Assembly: GCA_028280635.1 (NCBI GenBank)
Contig: JANQLM010000043.1
Coordinates: 62,001 to 126,000 of the forward strand
Source: Halieaceae bacterium
GTDB lineage: Bacteria > Pseudomonadota > Gammaproteobacteria > Pseudomonadales > Halieaceae
Direction: 5' to 3'
DNA length: 64,000 nt
Shown: positions 12,595 to 19,053 of the stretch, one piece after another
Numbering within the stretch: position 1 is the first letter of the stretch
Layout of the letters: every line of letters begins with the position of its first letter
Program-made: the position numbers and the translations under genes
The notes under the pieces: generated by a model
What the model was told of the DNA's origin: nothing
Database searches by the model: none
The model's input: the letters and a program-made list of their open reading frames with translations, nothing else

Positions 12595-13038
12595 GTGAGA
12601 CTCACCGCCACCCTCACCCTCATTGCGGCCGCGGTAGCGCTGATGCTCTACCCGTTCTGGGGCCTGCTACACCCGCAGAGTTACGAAACGGTATTGCTTG
12701 CGGAGTTCGGGCTCACTGAGGGCGTCTCACCAGGCCAGGTGAGACGCTCCGCCGCCATGAACTGGGCACCGAATGGCATTCTCGCGTCCGCCTTCGTATG
12801 CCTCTCCGGCTTCGTCCGGAATCCAGGCCGCAGCCTTCACGCCCGCTGGGCCGGGGGCTGCTTCATCGTCTACCCTTTCCTTCGCGCGGCCATAGACGCC
12901 TGGAGTGGCTTCAATCTCACCTCATACACGCCGGAGCCCGAGTTCACCCTGTTTTTCAGCGGCGAAGACCTGGTGTACGTCGTCTTCGGCGTGGTGTTTT
13001 TGGCACTTACGTCTACGGCTAAGCTCAGCCAAACCTGA
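12595..13038 (+). CDS. Small integral membrane protein, unknown function
   Basis: GTG start; several hydrophobic segments; collinear with preceding operon. Confidence 0.6.
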   Translation: MRLTATLTLIAAAVALMLYPFWGLLHPQSYETVLLAEFGLTEGVSPGQVRRSAAMNWAPNGILASAFVCLSGFVRNPGRSLHARWAGGCFIVYPFLRAAIDAWSGFNLTSYTPEPEFTLFFSGEDLVYVVFGVVFLALTSTAKLSQT

Positions 13039-13275
13039 GAGCGTAGACGCGATGCACGAGAGCTGGCGCGCAAGAAACGCTGGGCGTGGACCACGGAATC
13101 GTCGCGACAATTTATCCCTCAAGGTCGTGCCGATAACGAGCGAAAACAAAAAAGCCGAGTGGTAAGCCAATCTTTGCACAAATAAAAACGAGCCAAGTCC
13201 TCCAAGTGCTTGTATAGAAGCAGGTTTTCGGGAGAATAAATCTTGGAATCCCTACATACCGAGACGAGGAGAAAA

Positions 13276-13338
13276 ATGAACCCCGTCCATTTATTTAGCT
13301 GTTATGGGTCTCTTGCGAAGCTATGTCCTCTGATTTAG
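13276..13338 (+). CDS. Candidate short leader ORF spanning the left recombination core and overlapping the first cassette gene
   Basis: GAGGAGAAAA-ATG then MNPVHLFSCYGSLAKLCPLI-stop; crosses GTTATGG (13301-13307) and overlaps ATG 13323 by 16 nt. Confidence 0.45.
   Translation: MNPVHLFSCYGSLAKLCPLI
13301..13307 (+). other. Candidate left recombination core (attI-like or attC R')
   Basis: GTTATGG fits GTTRNNN-type cores seen at the other attC sites; lies just before the first cassette ORF. Confidence 0.45.
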
Positions 13339-13673
13339 CCAAGACATGGATCGAGTACCACGCCGAGAGGGACGAGGCCTTGTTCTGGGCCTTCGAGAAG
13401 CTAAATGAGCTATGCCAGGATCAACCAGAAGACGCATGGAGTATAGTCTTGGAAATATCAGAACTAACTGATGATCCGAGGGTACTCTCGAATCTGGCGG
13501 CAGGCCCCCTCGAAGATATACTTACCAAACACGGCCACGATTTTATTGATCGCTTCGAGATACACACTCGCCAAAATCCCGGGTTCGTTCCAGTTGCAAA
13601 GGGTGTATGGATCAGCGGCGCGCCTAAAGACATCGAAGAGAGGGTGCATGAAGTACAAGGACGGTACTCATAA
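13323..13673 (+). CDS. Cassette C1: small protein, DUF6869-like (family assigned from memory)
   Basis: 116 aa; ..LSNLAAGPLEDILTKHGHDFIDRFE..; followed by an attC. Confidence 0.65.
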   Translation: MSSDLAKTWIEYHAERDEALFWAFEKLNELCQDQPEDAWSIVLEISELTDDPRVLSNLAAGPLEDILTKHGHDFIDRFEIHTRQNPGFVPVAKGVWISGAPKDIEERVHEVQGRYS

Positions 13674-13754
13674 CAAGGCAATGCTGTCGCTGCGCTGGGA
13701 CACCCAACCTTCCGCTGCGCTCCAGGTCGGGCGCCCCAGCTTGCGGCGTTAAGT
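13669..13754 (+). repeat. attC site a
   Basis: CATAACAAGGCAATGCTGTCGCTGCGCTGGGACACCCAACCTTCCGCTGCGCTCCAGGTCGGGCGCCCCAGCTTGCGGCGTTAAGT. Confidence 0.9.
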
Positions 13755-13762
13755 GCTGTAGC

Positions 13763-14461
13763 GTGCAGAGTCACATACCCGAAATTCTCAGGAACCAATT
13801 TAGATTCCTAGTATTTAGACGAATTTCCCCTGATATTCGGAACCACTTTCCCGAATATTTGACGTATGTTGTTCTCGTTTCACTGGCTGCAGGCGTAGGA
13901 CGGTATTGGGACCACTTAGATGCCGAGCCATGGCAGTACTTCGGCGTGGGATCACTCGCTTACATTTTCGTTTTGTCGGCCTTCCTTTATCTGATTGTTC
14001 TGCCCCTTAGGCCGAACCGTTGGAGTTACAGATCCGTCTTGATTTTCGTCGGCCTAACCTCCTTGCCAGCAATCCTCTATGCAGTGCCTGTCGAGCGTTT
14101 CATGGACATCGTCGCTGCCCAGAATGCCAACGCGCTGTTCCTGGCGCTAATCGCTGTATGGCGCGTGGCGCTTTACACCAATTATCTTAGAAGCACAGCA
14201 AGCCTCAGAGGCGTGGAAGTCTTAGTATCTTTACTCCTTCCGCTATCTCTAATAGTCGTGACACTGAGCCTGCTAAATTTGGAACACGCGGTGTTTCAAA
14301 TTATGGCCGGAAATCCTGTAGCCCCAACGGCGGCAGATTTGTCGTACTTCGTTGTACTGTTGCTAAGCGTCTTGGCCTACTTCACGCTCCCAGTTACTCT
14401 GGGCCTGTATTTGTACGTAATTTATAGAAAGTGGAAGAGTTCCAGTGATAATCGCAATTAA
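13763..14461 (+). CDS. Cassette C2: multi-pass membrane protein
   Basis: GTG start 9 bp after attC; multiple hydrophobic segments; stop TAA lies inside the next R''. Confidence 0.7.
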   Translation: MQSHIPEILRNQFRFLVFRRISPDIRNHFPEYLTYVVLVSLAAGVGRYWDHLDAEPWQYFGVGSLAYIFVLSAFLYLIVLPLRPNRWSYRSVLIFVGLTSLPAILYAVPVERFMDIVAAQNANALFLALIAVWRVALYTNYLRSTASLRGVEVLVSLLLPLSLIVVTLSLLNLEHAVFQIMAGNPVAPTAADLSYFVVLLLSVLAYFTLPVTLGLYLYVIYRKWKSSSDNRN

Positions 14462-14605
14462 CAAGACCAGGCAGTTCGCTCCCTTCGGTCGCCGAATTCC
14501 GGGGACAGTTTACTTAACTGCCGAACATAGCGTTTCGCGCCGTTTTTTTGAGCTTGAGTTAAGTGAACTGTCCCCAGAACTGCAGAACTCTTCGCGGCGT
14601 TATAT
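14457..14605 (+). repeat. attC site b, interrupted by palindromic element copy 1
   Basis: R'' AATTAACAAG at left, R' GTTATAT (14599-14605) at right; removing the 88-bp element leaves ~61 bp. Confidence 0.7.
14494..14581. mobile_element. Palindromic MITE/REP-like element copy 1
   Basis: GAATTCCGGGGACAGTTTACTTAACT...GAGTTAAGTGAACTGTCCCCAGAACT; ends are imperfect inverted repeats. Confidence 0.75.
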
Positions 14606-14628
14606 GCCCTTAATGAGTACCTAGCTAG

Positions 14629-15177
14629 ATGAATTGGATGGAATTTACAGAAAAAATAGTAGGTCATGTATCTTGGCCTATAGCCATATTCTCCACAGCG
14701 GTACTTTTTAGGAGTGAAATTCGCGGATTCGTCCGGAGAATACGCACAGCCAAGTACAAAGATATGGAGCTTAATCTTGGCCATGAAATTCAGTCTGTGA
14801 AACAAGAGGCCGAAGATGCTGGAATCACCATTTACTACCCTGATGCTGCCTTCCCTCCAGATACTGTAAGTAGCATCGAGTCTGAGCCAGAGTGGGCAAT
14901 CATTAAGTCATGGCAAGAGATCGAGTCTGTTTTGACTACTCTCTATAGACAAGCAACGGGTAGTGAAGAGAAACGTGAATCTATACCTGAAATTATCAAT
15001 ATTTTGGCCCAGAAAGGCATGATTCAAAGGGATTTAGCCGATTTAGTGGCAAAGATTCGAGAAGTCCGAAACAAAATAGTCCATGTTTCTGATTCCGAAC
15101 TTACCCGGGGGGAGGCCCTAGAATGGCTGGGGATATCAAAGAGCGTAAAAGATAGATTGGAGCAAAGGCTCGTATGA
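14629..15177 (+). CDS. Cassette C3: N-terminal TM protein with C-terminal HEPN-like (RNxxxH) segment
   Basis: 182 aa; TM near N-terminus; ..LVAKIREVRNKIVHVSDSELTRGEALEWL.. Confidence 0.65.
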   Translation: MNWMEFTEKIVGHVSWPIAIFSTAVLFRSEIRGFVRRIRTAKYKDMELNLGHEIQSVKQEAEDAGITIYYPDAAFPPDTVSSIESEPEWAIIKSWQEIESVLTTLYRQATGSEEKRESIPEIINILAQKGMIQRDLADLVAKIREVRNKIVHVSDSELTRGEALEWLGISKSVKDRLEQRLV

Positions 15178-15203
15178 TCTCTAAGTTACCGGCATATAAC
15201 AAC

Positions 15204-15290
15204 GAATTCGGGGGACAGTTTACTCAACTGCCGAACATAGCGGGTCGCGCCGTTTTTTAAGCTTGAGTTAAGTGAACTGTCCCCGGAACT
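15204..15290. mobile_element. Palindromic MITE/REP-like element copy 2
   Basis: GAATTCGGGGGACAGTTTACTCAACTGCCGAACATAGCGG...TTGAGTTAAGTGAACTGTCCCCGGAACT; left edge abuts CATATAACAAC (R''-like). Confidence 0.75.
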
Positions 15291-15697
15291 CGCAGGACAA
15301 TTCTGGTCGTTTTCCGCCAAATGCTTACGAACTTGCTACATCTGACTGGTACTACAATTTCGATGACCATAGATGTCCCCATGATTCTTGGCTAGAGGAG
15401 CTTTCCATTAGAGAATCGGCGACAGGGGAGCGCAATGAGATCCGTTCGACAGAGATGTCTATAAGGCTCCTCGGCGCATATCACGACGGATTCATCGAGC
15501 TGCGATACGGTAAAGTAAGTTCCTACAGGCTCAAAGGTGCATTTATCTCTGACGGCCACTCTGACTGGCGTTATGACGAGTTCCGGCTCACGAATGACGG
15601 CCGCCTAATTCATGAGATTGAGTGGTGTGGTTTCGAAGATACAGCAGTTATGGAAATTGTTTCGAGGGATGTCCAGTTCTCATGGCTACCAAAGTAA
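15272..15697 (+). CDS. Cassette C4: hypothetical protein whose ORF begins inside element copy 2
   Basis: 141 aa from GTG inside the repeat; body ..SDWYYNFDDHRCPHDSWLEELSIRE..; followed by attC c. Confidence 0.55.
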   Translation: MNCPRNSQDNSGRFPPNAYELATSDWYYNFDDHRCPHDSWLEELSIRESATGERNEIRSTEMSIRLLGAYHDGFIELRYGKVSSYRLKGAFISDGHSDWRYDEFRLTNDGRLIHEIEWCGFEDTAVMEIVSRDVQFSWLPK

Positions 15698-15702
15698 CAA
15701 CG

Positions 15703-15788
15703 CATAACAAGGCAATGCTGTCGCTTCGCTGGGACACCCAACCTTCCGCTGCGCTCCAGGTCGGGCGCCCCAGCTTGCGGCGTTATGT
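15703..15788 (+). repeat. attC site c
   Basis: CATAACAAGGCAATGCTGTCGCTTCGCTGGGACACCCAACC...CAGCTTGCGGCGTTATGT; nearly identical to site a. Confidence 0.9.
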
Positions 15789-15800
15789 TTCTCCACGATC

Positions 15801-16061
15801 ATGATAAATAGCAGTGACAACCCTGTTGCATGGGCTCTCTTGATGCATGAGCTTGAAGATGCGCACGAACACCTGGGCGAGCTCATCGCAGGGATGGCCC
15901 GCGACGGCAGAATCGATGTCGAGGTATATGCAATCGACGTTGCCCATGTTTACGCTCATCTAAATCGCGCGTGGAACACCAGAGACATTCCTGATGAAGT
16001 CACTGACGAACAGTGGGAACAGGGCCGAGCTTTTCCAACAGATTTGGAGCCACTGGCTTGA
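15801..16061 (+). CDS. Cassette C5: small hypothetical protein
   Basis: 86 aa acidic protein 13 bp after attC c. Confidence 0.6.
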   Translation: MINSSDNPVAWALLMHELEDAHEHLGELIAGMARDGRIDVEVYAIDVAHVYAHLNRAWNTRDIPDEVTDEQWEQGRAFPTDLEPLA

Positions 16062-16066
16062 TTACC

Positions 16067-16153
16067 GAATTCGGGGGACAGTTTACTTAACTGCCGAACA
16101 TTGCGTTTCGCGCCGTTTTTTAAGCTTGAGTTAAGTGAACTGTCCCAGGAACT
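16067..16153. mobile_element. Palindromic MITE/REP-like element copy 3
   Basis: GAATTCGGGGGACAGTTTACTTAACTGCCGAACATTGCG...TTGAGTTAAGTGAACTGTCCCAGGAACT; right edge followed by C then GTTATGT (R'). Confidence 0.75.
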
Positions 16154-16174
16154 CGTTATGTGTAAGGACACTGG

Positions 16175-16465
16175 ATGAAGCTCACTAACGACGAAAAAGC
16201 GGTGGTTGCACGTTATCTTGGTTCAGACCCGAGCTGGCGCGGAGTACTGGCCGCCTATTGGCCTTTTCTAGCACCGTCGTTGATCGCAGGAACCTATGGG
16301 GTCTATGACCAAAACCACATTGCATGCTCCATCGGCTTCATCTTGCTAGCTTGTTTCGCCATGTGGTTTTTCTACCACGGAGGCAAGGAGGGCATTTATC
16401 TAAGGTCGGCTCTCGAAAAGTATGAGCAAGAGGTATCTGCACTTGGCGAGCAACCCTACACATAA
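16175..16465 (+). CDS. Cassette C6: small two-TM membrane protein
   Basis: 96 aa with two hydrophobic segments; bounded by R' GTTATGT and attC d. Confidence 0.65.
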   Translation: MKLTNDEKAVVARYLGSDPSWRGVLAAYWPFLAPSLIAGTYGVYDQNHIACSIGFILLACFAMWFFYHGGKEGIYLRSALEKYEQEVSALGEQPYT

Positions 16466-16546
16466 CAAGGTAAGGCTGGCGCTGCGCTGGGACACCCAAC
16501 CTTCCGCTGCGCTCCAGGCCGGGCGCCCCAGCTTGCGGCGTTACAT
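16461..16546 (+). repeat. attC site d
   Basis: CATAACAAGGTAAGGCTGGCGCTGCGCTGGGACACCCAACC...CAGCTTGCGGCGTTACAT. Confidence 0.9.
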
Positions 16547-16552
16547 GGCCTC

Positions 16553-16822
16553 ATGAATCGCGCCCAGGCATACAAGCTCGCCCAAGCGGAGTTGCTTAAA
16601 GTAGAACAGGAAGGCTTCGCCGTTGCTTCTGGAAACATTGGTCCCGGAAACGCCCGCGAAACACGCGATAGCAACGGCACCGTATACGAGGTCGAGTTAT
16701 CCTACACTTACGGCAATACCGAAAGATCTAGAATAGAAGTTACGTGCAAGGTTACGCCAAAGAATTGGTTCCGACATGAGCAGTTAGAGGAGTCCATTAC
16801 GCTATATGCACCGGCCATTTAA
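16553..16822 (+). CDS. Cassette C7: small hypothetical protein
   Basis: 89 aa between two attC sites; stop TAA in next R''. Confidence 0.65.
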   Translation: MNRAQAYKLAQAELLKVEQEGFAVASGNIGPGNARETRDSNGTVYEVELSYTYGNTERSRIEVTCKVTPKNWFRHEQLEESITLYAPAI

Positions 16823-16891
16823 CAAGGCAAGGCTGCAGGGCCGCTCTGCGCCGGGACGGCGTGTCGACCGCCCCAGCTTGAAGCGTTATGT
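16817..16891 (+). repeat. attC site e
   Basis: ATTTAACAAGGCAAGGCTGCAGGGCCGCTCTGCGCCGGGACGGCGTGTCGACCGCCCCAGCTTGAAGCGTTATGT. Confidence 0.9.
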
Positions 16892-16900
16892 GTCCACGCG

Positions 16901-17224
16901 ATGAAGCTCCTTTTCGTGTGTTCCGAGAATCGCCTGCGAAGCCCTACTGCTGAGGAAGTTTTCTCAGCATATCCAGGCGTGGAAGCTATCGGATGTGGGA
17001 CAAACTCCGACTCAGAGACATCCATTTCCGGAGACCTAATTGAGTGGGCCGACATCGTCCTTGTTATGGAGAGATCGCACCGCAACAAAGTATCGCAGAA
17101 ATTCCGCGATCTCCTGAAAACGAAGAGACTTGTCTGCTTGGACATTCCGGATAACTATGATCGTATGCAGCCAGAATTGGTTCGGTTACTTGAGAGAAAG
17201 GTACCACGGTATGTGCGCCTGTAG
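16901..17224 (+). CDS. Cassette C8: low-molecular-weight protein tyrosine phosphatase-like protein
   Basis: 107 aa; CX5R loop in MKLLFVCSENRLRSPTAEEVF and C-terminal DIPDNYDRM. Confidence 0.8.
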   Translation: MKLLFVCSENRLRSPTAEEVFSAYPGVEAIGCGTNSDSETSISGDLIEWADIVLVMERSHRNKVSQKFRDLLKTKRLVCLDIPDNYDRMQPELVRLLERKVPRYVRL

Positions 17225-17230
17225 CGGACA

Positions 17231-17304
17231 CATAACAAGTCAAGGCTGCAAGGCCGCTTCGCGCCGGGACAGCCTACCGGCTGCCCCAGCTTGAAGCGTT
17301 AGGG
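17231..17304 (+). repeat. attC site f
   Basis: CATAACAAGTCAAGGCTGCAAGGCCGCTTCGCGCCGGGACAGCCTACCGGCTGCCCCAGCTTGAAGCGTTAGGG. Confidence 0.9.
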
Positions 17305-17310
17305 AGCGCG

Positions 17311-17670
17311 ATGGGCGAGCATCTAGAAACGGTTACGCTCTACCGCCCTACTGGACCGGAAGAACTGAAGCTCGTTAAAGACTCTGGATTCAAACGCTGG
17401 CCACCCCGACTGCCTGGTCAACCGTTCTTCTATCCAGTTACAAACGAGCAGTACGCCATCGAAATTGCATCACAGTGGAACGTCAAAGATAGCGGTGTTG
17501 GCTTTGTCACACGTTTTTATGTGAAGCGGGAATTCATGGACCGTTACGAGATACAGACTGTTGGGGCATCACATCACTCTGAATGGTGGGTGCCAGATGC
17601 GGAGTTGGAAGAACTAAACGACAGTATTGTGGGCGACATCGAGGTAATAGGTGAGTATCGCGCATCCTAA
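17311..17670 (+). CDS. Cassette C9: hypothetical protein (resembles proteins often named ADP-ribosylation/crystallin J1)
   Basis: 119 aa; TVTLYRPTGPEELKLVKDSGFKRWPPRLPGQPFFYPVTNEQYAIEIA; bounded by attC f and g. Confidence 0.65.
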   Translation: MGEHLETVTLYRPTGPEELKLVKDSGFKRWPPRLPGQPFFYPVTNEQYAIEIASQWNVKDSGVGFVTRFYVKREFMDRYEIQTVGASHHSEWWVPDAELEELNDSIVGDIEVIGEYRAS

Positions 17671-17724
17671 CAAGCCTGGGCAGCAGGGACGTGCCAACGC
17701 ACGCCCCTGCTCGGGGCGTTAGGT
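17665..17724 (+). repeat. attC site g
   Basis: TCCTAACAAGCCTGGGCAGCAGGGACGTGCCAACGCACGCCCCTGCTCGGGGCGTTAGGT; 60 bp. Confidence 0.88.
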
Positions 17725-17744
17725 GGCGCCGGGAGATAGCAGAA

Positions 17745-18044
17745 TTGGAATTATTGGCCGTTTTGCTAGGGTGGCCCGCGATTGCATTGGCGTTGGTGCT
17801 ATCGGCGATTGGCATAATACGCAGCCAATCCGCGTTGCTTTTCGTCGGGGCCGGCCTGCTTCTACCAACTTCTCTCTACCTGACTGGAAGCCCGCGCATT
17901 GGGTGGCTCGGATTGGCGGTGGTGTTTCTCGTGGCTGGGGCAGGCATCGCGGTGAAGAGGCGCCGAGCCAAAACTGCGCTTGCATTGTATTTACCAGTGG
18001 TTGCGGCGTTGAGCCACCTGGCAGTGCTGGTGGTCACACAGTGA
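17745..18044 (+). CDS. Cassette C10: small membrane protein
   Basis: Probable TTG start; highly hydrophobic ~99 aa; ORF as listed runs back to 17691 through attC g. Confidence 0.55.
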   Translation: MELLAVLLGWPAIALALVLSAIGIIRSQSALLFVGAGLLLPTSLYLTGSPRIGWLGLAVVFLVAGAGIAVKRRRAKTALALYLPVVAALSHLAVLVVTQ

Positions 18045-18050
18045 ACATGT

Positions 18051-18135
18051 CACCCAACAAGGCAAGGCTACCGCTTCGCTGGGACGCCCAACCTTCCGCT
18101 GCGTTCCAGGCTGTGCTGCCTGCCGGCGGCAATAG
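18051..18135 (+). repeat. attC site h (degenerate right end)
   Basis: CACCCAACAAGGCAAGGCTACCGCTTCGCTGGGACGCCCAACCTTCCGCTGCGTTCCAGGC.. matches sites a/c/d, but no intact R'. Confidence 0.65.
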
Positions 18136-18141
18136 CTGTCC

Positions 18142-18588
18142 ATGAGCGTCAGAAGCGCCACTGGGCACGACAAGGGCACTCTAATTGCCCTGCGAAAAGA
18201 ACTGTGGCCCGACGAAGTCGACGAGCACAACGATGAGCTAACCAGGTTCTTCGAAGGACAGCTTTCCCACATTGACCATATCGTTGTGGCCGAATCTGAA
18301 TCCGGAGAAATAATCGGCTTCGCTGAACTGCGGGTTAGGAACTATGCGGAAGGCAGCAATAACTTCGAAGTGCCCTTCCTTGAAGGGTGGTATGTGACGC
18401 CTTCACATCGCAGGAATGGGATTGGGCGAGCCCTAATTGGTGAAGCAGAAGCATGGGCGCGCAGAGGAAGGTATAGTGAACTTGCCAGCGACGTTCTTAT
18501 CAGCAATTCAGAAGCCATATGCGCTCATGCGTCAATTGGTTTCAAAGAGGTAGAGCGCACTGTTAGTTTTCTCAAAAATATCGAGTGA
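18142..18588 (+). CDS. Cassette C11: GNAT acetyltransferase resembling AAC(6')-I aminoglycoside 6'-N-acetyltransferases
   Basis: 148 aa; ALRKELWPDEVDEH..VPFLEGWYVTPSHRRNGIGRALIGEAEAWARRGRYSELASDVLISNSEAICAHASIGFKEVERTVSFLKNI follows the AAC(6')-I signature. Confidence 0.8.
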   Translation: MSVRSATGHDKGTLIALRKELWPDEVDEHNDELTRFFEGQLSHIDHIVVAESESGEIIGFAELRVRNYAEGSNNFEVPFLEGWYVTPSHRRNGIGRALIGEAEAWARRGRYSELASDVLISNSEAICAHASIGFKEVERTVSFLKNIE

Positions 18589-18653
18589 ATAAACCTGACA
18601 GGCCGCTTCCCGCCGGGACAGTCTGCCGACTGTCCCAGCTTGAAGCGTTAGGT
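18586..18653 (+). repeat. attC site i
   Basis: Degenerate R'' (TGAATAAACCTGACAGG) but clear right half: GGGACAGTCTGCCGACTGTCCCAGCTTGAAGCGTTAGGT. Confidence 0.75.
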
Positions 18654-18666
18654 AGCCTATTCGAGT

Positions 18667-19053
18667 ATGACGAAGCACGGCGAGTTCAATTGGATTGAGC
18701 TTCAAACTCACAATACCGACGCGGCGATAAAGTTTTATAAAAAGTCCGCGGGATGGAAATTTCAAGCTGAGACCATGCCCAGCGGTGGCACCTATTGGTT
18801 GGCGATGCTGGGTGAGAAGGTAATCTGCGGCATATGGACCTTAGAAAGCGATGGTGGTGAATCAGCCAAAAACAGATGGGTAGTCTATTTGCACGTAGAT
18901 GACATTGATGACGCTATCGATCAAGCAAAATCTATCGGTGCTGAAATTCTACATGAACCCTGGAATGTCCCGGGAGTTGGTCGCATAGCCATGATACGAG
19001 ATCCAGGTGGCGCAGAAATAGGATGGGTAACTCCCAGTACCCGGGCTACCTAA
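18667..19053 (+). CDS. Cassette C12: VOC (glyoxalase/bleomycin-resistance) family protein
   Basis: 128 aa; FNWIELQTHNTDAAIKFYKKSAGWKF..IAMIRDPGGAEIGWVTP. Confidence 0.88.
   Translation: MTKHGEFNWIELQTHNTDAAIKFYKKSAGWKFQAETMPSGGTYWLAMLGEKVICGIWTLESDGGESAKNRWVVYLHVDDIDDAIDQAKSIGAEILHEPWNVPGVGRIAMIRDPGGAEIGWVTPSTRAT

Follow-up and report, generated by a model that had tools for sequence, protein, structure and literature searches.

The integron integrase, IntI, recombines the folded bottom strand of an attC site with attI, between a G and a TT. Loss of intI that leaves the cassettes behind has been described for the sedentary chromosomal integrons of Xanthomonas and Treponema (PMC12444791, PMC3607928), and the formation of a cluster of attC sites lacking integrase (CALIN) through integrase loss is an ordinary fate. 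According to PMC12444791, the cassettes of CALINs can be mobilised in trans. Insertion at attG is a case of an integrase working on a site other than its own attI.

The locus described here, in a 64,000-nucleotide window from a Halieaceae bacterium, resembles a CALIN in being a cassette array that has attC sites but lacks a neighbouring intI, and differs in keeping a recognisable attI at what is probably its native locus, with a putative intI deletion that shows up in comparison with two congeners. As in Xanthomonas and Treponema, where intI decays, cassettes remain after the apparent loss of intI, but here attI-like sites at different loci, some in common with a congener, head integrase-less arrays. 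Unlike attG insertions, the left boundaries of these arrays are attI-like over about 50-100 bp rather than a bare GTT core. Our literature search, in which subscription journals were thinly covered, turned up no account of multiple attI copies, at conserved loci, standing at the head of arrays that lack intI. To our knowledge, attI is rarely searched for beyond the known classes.

The array in the window (on contig C22) comprises 12 small ORFs, all on the plus strand, and is adjoined on the left by an AcrB-type RND operon. With a GC content of 51.6%, against 63.6% upstream and 57.6% downstream, it is AT-richer than its flanks; a preliminary description had reported this and the RND operon correctly. 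The array opens with an attI-like site (13209-13308, plus strand; core 13254-13304, crossover between G13301 and T13302), recognised by its similarity to intI-linked attI, and GTT junctions are visible along it. Cassette 1 (13302-13748) carries a DUF6869 ORF (13323-13673, domain match) and an attC at 13669-13755 (77.3 bits, E 1e-18). Cassette 2 (13749-14599) has a membrane protein-like ORF without a Pfam match (13763-14461), and the loop of its attC (14455-14606) is interrupted by a palindromic element (14493-14582), seen in the sequence and by repeat search (repeat family D2). Cassette 3 (14600-15202), with a HEPN-like ORF (14629-15177; sequence, domain match), terminates in the left half of an attC; a second palindrome (15203-15292) lies immediately 3' of the R'' core ATATAACAA, and the right half of the site is missing. 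The start of the cassette 4 ORF (15272-15697) was possibly cut by this palindrome, to judge from the missing R'; its attC lies at 15703-15788 (79.3 bits, E 4e-19). The cassette 5 ORF (15801-16061) is followed by a third palindrome (16066-16155) that ends exactly at an R' core (G16155, TTATGTG).

Further right, cassette 6 has a membrane protein-like ORF (16175-16465) and an attC at 16461-16546 (72.3 bits, E 3e-17), and cassette 7 an ORF at 16553-16822 with its attC at 16818-16891 (84.4 bits, E 1e-20). The cassette 8 ORF (16901-17224) is low-molecular-weight phosphatase-like by a short N-terminal match only, and its attC (17231-17304) scores 85.1 bits (E 9e-21). The ORF of cassette 9 (17311-17670) is followed by an attC at 17666-17724 (57 bits, E 4e-13), and the membrane protein-like ORF of cassette 10 (17691-18044) by a decayed attC (18053-18138) that has lost its R' core, scores 12 bits and is 66% identical to attC 1. 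Cassette 11 encodes a GNAT acetyltransferase (18142-18588, domain match), with an attC whose R'' is degenerate (18588-18653; 51.4 bits, E 1e-11). The last ORF (18667-19053), of the VOC/glyoxalase family, has no attC 3' of it by the attC model. This gene content, with its small membrane proteins, is of the usual kind for cassettes. In a defence-gene search with nine cassette proteins from the window and the C108 array (below), only the HEPN-like protein gave matches, and these were weak.

The attC covariance model was trained on eight attC-type sites, seven of them from the window, which therefore scores by construction (13669, 15703, 16461, 16818, 17231, 17666 and 18588; E 1e-11 to 1e-20); the informative test is thus the matches elsewhere in the genome and family. 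At E below 1e-4, matches in the remainder of the 4.48-Mb genome were confined to four other cassette arrays (C28, C7, C80 and C108), and 52 of 141 family genomes were positive, many of which carry intI. These results bear out the reading of the region as integron gene cassettes with attC sites. The preliminary count of at least eight attC sites stands for seven strong ones; the eighth is decayed, and at three more positions (14455-14606, 15193-15202 and 16066-16161) a 90-bp palindrome interrupts the site or stands in its place. These palindromes inside attC sites and the four other arrays lay beyond the view of that first reading. Bottom-strand folding, which it had proposed as a check, agreed in part: the R/L-box hairpin was better than in shuffles at 15703 (z -3.1), 17231 (-2.9), 17666 (-4.5) and 18588 (-6.5), showed no clear gain at 13669 (-1.3), 16461 (-0.2) and 16818 (-1.6), and was worse than shuffles at the decayed site (+1.7). 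Rfam models at the gathering threshold gave zero matches in the window.

We searched the whole draft assembly (132 contigs, 98.6% complete) with the integron-integrase model TIGR02249 and found no intI, in agreement with the preliminary description; the best matches, two XerC/D-like proteins, scored 82 and 72 bits where the cut-off is 265. With seven attC sites close together at E 1e-11 or better, where a CALIN needs at least two, and no integron integrase nearby, the array is a CALIN by definition, and not merely CALIN-like. Of the parts of a complete integron, the intI gene is absent from the window, and an attI is present by sequence at the array head.

This attI ties the locus to an intI-bearing integron. 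The sequence ACATACCGAGACGAGGAACAAATGAACCCCGTCTATTTATTTAGCTGTTA adjoins intI in the congener G038, and nearly the same sequence opens the window array. The two attI sites are 94% identical over 51 bp, and a model trained solely on intI-linked attI sites recovered the window site at E 9e-11. Identity to G038 falls from 94% in the attI core to 65% in the next 50 bp upstream and 48% in the 100 bp beyond, unrelated sequence giving 45%. The DNA upstream of the array matches G038 (contig C244) at 89.8% over 3745 bp, the match ending before the G038 intI and resuming at attI. The gap between these homology blocks is 2089 bp in G038, where it holds intI, and about 220 bp in the window (13005-13222), where we found no recognisable intI remnant; about 1.9 kb, intI included, is missing from the window. 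In a second congener, G039, intI likewise adjoins the RND operon (contig C165; 83.8% over 4.9 kb). A promoter scan at attI found nothing.

An attI of the intI-linked type, together with syntenic intI genes in G038 and G039, points to a native integron locus from which intI was deleted. From these sequence comparisons we consider it very probable that the window holds the genus's native chromosomal integron after an in-place deletion of intI that spared attI. An intI may still lie on unassembled DNA of the 132-contig draft, which would speak against loss. The array could instead be a detached or newly seeded CALIN, inserted in trans at attG where no integron ever stood, an explanation that fits the missing intI and the lack of a recognisable remnant, and CALINs of this kind are known from work cited in PMC12444791. 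A full attI ahead of the first cassette speaks against it, and the intI genes of G038 and G039 at the same locus largely refute it, so that we regard it as very improbable. The same two observations contradict the preliminary suggestion of a piece detached from a larger array. As a probable product of intI deletion in place, with attI left and two congeners to read it against, the locus bears on how CALINs originate. Its cassettes would have entered through IntI-mediated attC x attI recombination; intI would then have been lost, followed by decay and by palindromes accumulating in attC sites.

The four additional integrase-less arrays of the genome led the comparison beyond the window: C28 and C80 start with attI-like sequence, and C108 perhaps does. 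We used two attI models. The training set of the first (R2) consisted partly of array starts; its matches adjoin intI in twelve genomes, which supports the sequence being attI, and others, in the source genome and elsewhere, have no intI, several of them lying at array starts. The second (R3), trained on intI-linked sites alone, was run over the source genome and its three congeners. It ranked two intI-linked sites highest, followed by the window site on C22 (9e-11), C28 (2.4e-10) and G038:C23 (2.9e-10), with weaker matches at G038:C122 (8.2e-7), C80 (0.0027) and G039:C220 (0.0058) and a background of 0.52. A model built from intI-linked sites thus exposed integrase-less platforms, strongly at C28 and marginally at C80; it missed C108, which was matched by R2 only.

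Besides the main locus, three loci are shared with G038: C28 corresponds to C23/C59, C80 to C118 and C7 to C122. At orthologous positions, the source genome and its congener carry attI platforms without an integrase. At C28 and G038 C23/C59 an acyl-CoA ligase gene lies upstream (88.7%), and the arrays have no cassette ORF in common, only attC sequence. The same platform with wholly different cassettes implies exchange or pruning of cassettes since the two species diverged. The attI-like site of C80/C118 is 83% conserved, no better than its flank (78-88%), which, like the marginal score of C80 and the failure of R3 to match C108, counts against the proposed reading. At C7 the attI is gone and a palindrome sits where a truncated VOC gene meets the first cassette, and G038:C122 retains the VOC gene, attI and cassettes. 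By genome-wide search G038 has a single intI, located elsewhere than its satellite loci. The flanking genes had no match in the congener G037, which therefore offered no empty site for comparison.

These arrangements suggest, tentatively and from sequence comparison, that one integrase served several attI platforms in trans, loading and unloading them before its loss, and that these were orphaned when intI disappeared; we hold this to be nearly as probable as not. The satellites C28, C80, C108 and C7 might instead be read as several complete integrons, each shorn of its own intI, with no need for loading in trans. More than one integron per genome does occur in the family, since G012 has two intI genes, and the homology of the G038:C23 satellite to the main locus extends for about 170 bp on the upstream side of the crossover, as it would in a shortened integron copy. 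This reading remains somewhat doubtful to us: no intI was seen in the examined satellite flanks of two species, and genome-wide there is none in the source and one in G038. Moreover, C28 and G038:C23/C59 occupy the same platform without a common cassette, and on the assembled evidence that platform was then without an adjacent intI. Non-overlapping cassettes could also arise at a shared platform by differential deletion of a longer ancestral array, and we prefer in-trans use of the C28 platform over such pruning. Were platforms served in trans, the picture of one attI per integron would need revision and CALIN counts would have to be read differently.

The palindromes that break attC sites belong to a repeat family, GGGGACAG / GGGGACAGTTTACTTAA(C/T), of about 26 copies in the genome, many of them inverted pairs. 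Each of the five arrays of the source genome has REP-like palindromes within or next to attC sites; outside the window they are at L057 5450-5540, L056 2793-2865, L021 1055-1144 and 2125-2223, and, on the minus strand, L055 1626-1537 and 3966-3890. Six GGGGACAG copies occur within 18 kb of ordinary chromosome on C53 (G000:C53 69000-88500, L117), and a different palindrome type, GGGGTCAGAG, sits in an apparent attC of C108. The palindrome contains ACTTAAC and GTTAAGT and was considered as an attC itself; this was dropped as unsupported, since the copies within arrays are complete from one end to the other and the family also occurs far from arrays. Like the REP palindromes mobilised by TnpA-REP (PMC8266576), these are dispersed, multicopy intergenic palindromes that would fold as single-strand hairpins. 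They differ in that no Y1 transposase (PF01797) match was found in the genome, which removes such a transposase as their mobiliser and leaves membership of the class putative, and in that many copies lie in or beside attC hairpins. The palindrome core had no match among GTDB and viral contigs, from which the source genome's own records may be left out.

In the proposed course of events, palindromes drop into intergenic DNA, and an attC broken in this way could not be excised, which would lead to a pile-up after intI loss; palindromes inside attC sites would be a simple means of freezing cassettes. The elements may target the attC hairpin. Alternatively they insert into whatever intergenic DNA is dispensable and are retained where excision by the integrase has stopped, which we think slightly the likelier account. 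The family's presence in ordinary regions, with the six copies on C53, agrees with landing without targeting, as does one C108 array copy that sits in an ORF end and not in an attC. A palindrome was found in 8 of 27 attC sites here (including one of the GGGGTCAG type) against 1 of about 18 in the intI-bearing G038, a further point in its favour (Fisher p 0.06, sites counted by eye). Set against it is the concentration of 8 of the 26 copies, mostly in or at attC sites, in arrays that make up 0.35% of the genome (p about 3e-14 by length, or 5e-11 counting only intergenic DNA, assumed to be 10%).

The one palindrome-bearing attC of G038 is the terminal site of C59, at the right end of the array. 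Behind that end (L174 2880-2990) lies a 124-bp duplicate, 85% identical, of the 3' end of the acyl-CoA ligase gene found upstream of that array's attI. Duplicated gene ends of this sort, a sign of island integration, were sought at the arrays and seen in G038 (C23/C59) only, not at the five of the source genome.

Across the family, one integrase might keep dispersed attI platforms whose arrays are loaded in trans, so that many CALINs would be working satellites of a distant integrase and not debris, with attI perhaps spreading in cassette-like fashion; this broader proposal is tentative, somewhat short of probable. In G129:C35 (L158 1016-1180) an attC has an attI-like site immediately after it, the two R' cores being about 113 bp apart, and a unit with 86% identity over 117 bp occurs in a different genus (G026:C2, L185 1610-1723), together a hint of such cassette-like spread. 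The C108 array (L055 1557-3805, minus strand) holds two adjacent ORFs of 497 and 251 aa without a match in Pfam or PADLOC. Lastly, the second C7 cassette (L021 1694-2094) has an 81% identical protein counterpart in the attI-headed array G039:C220, at a seemingly different locus.
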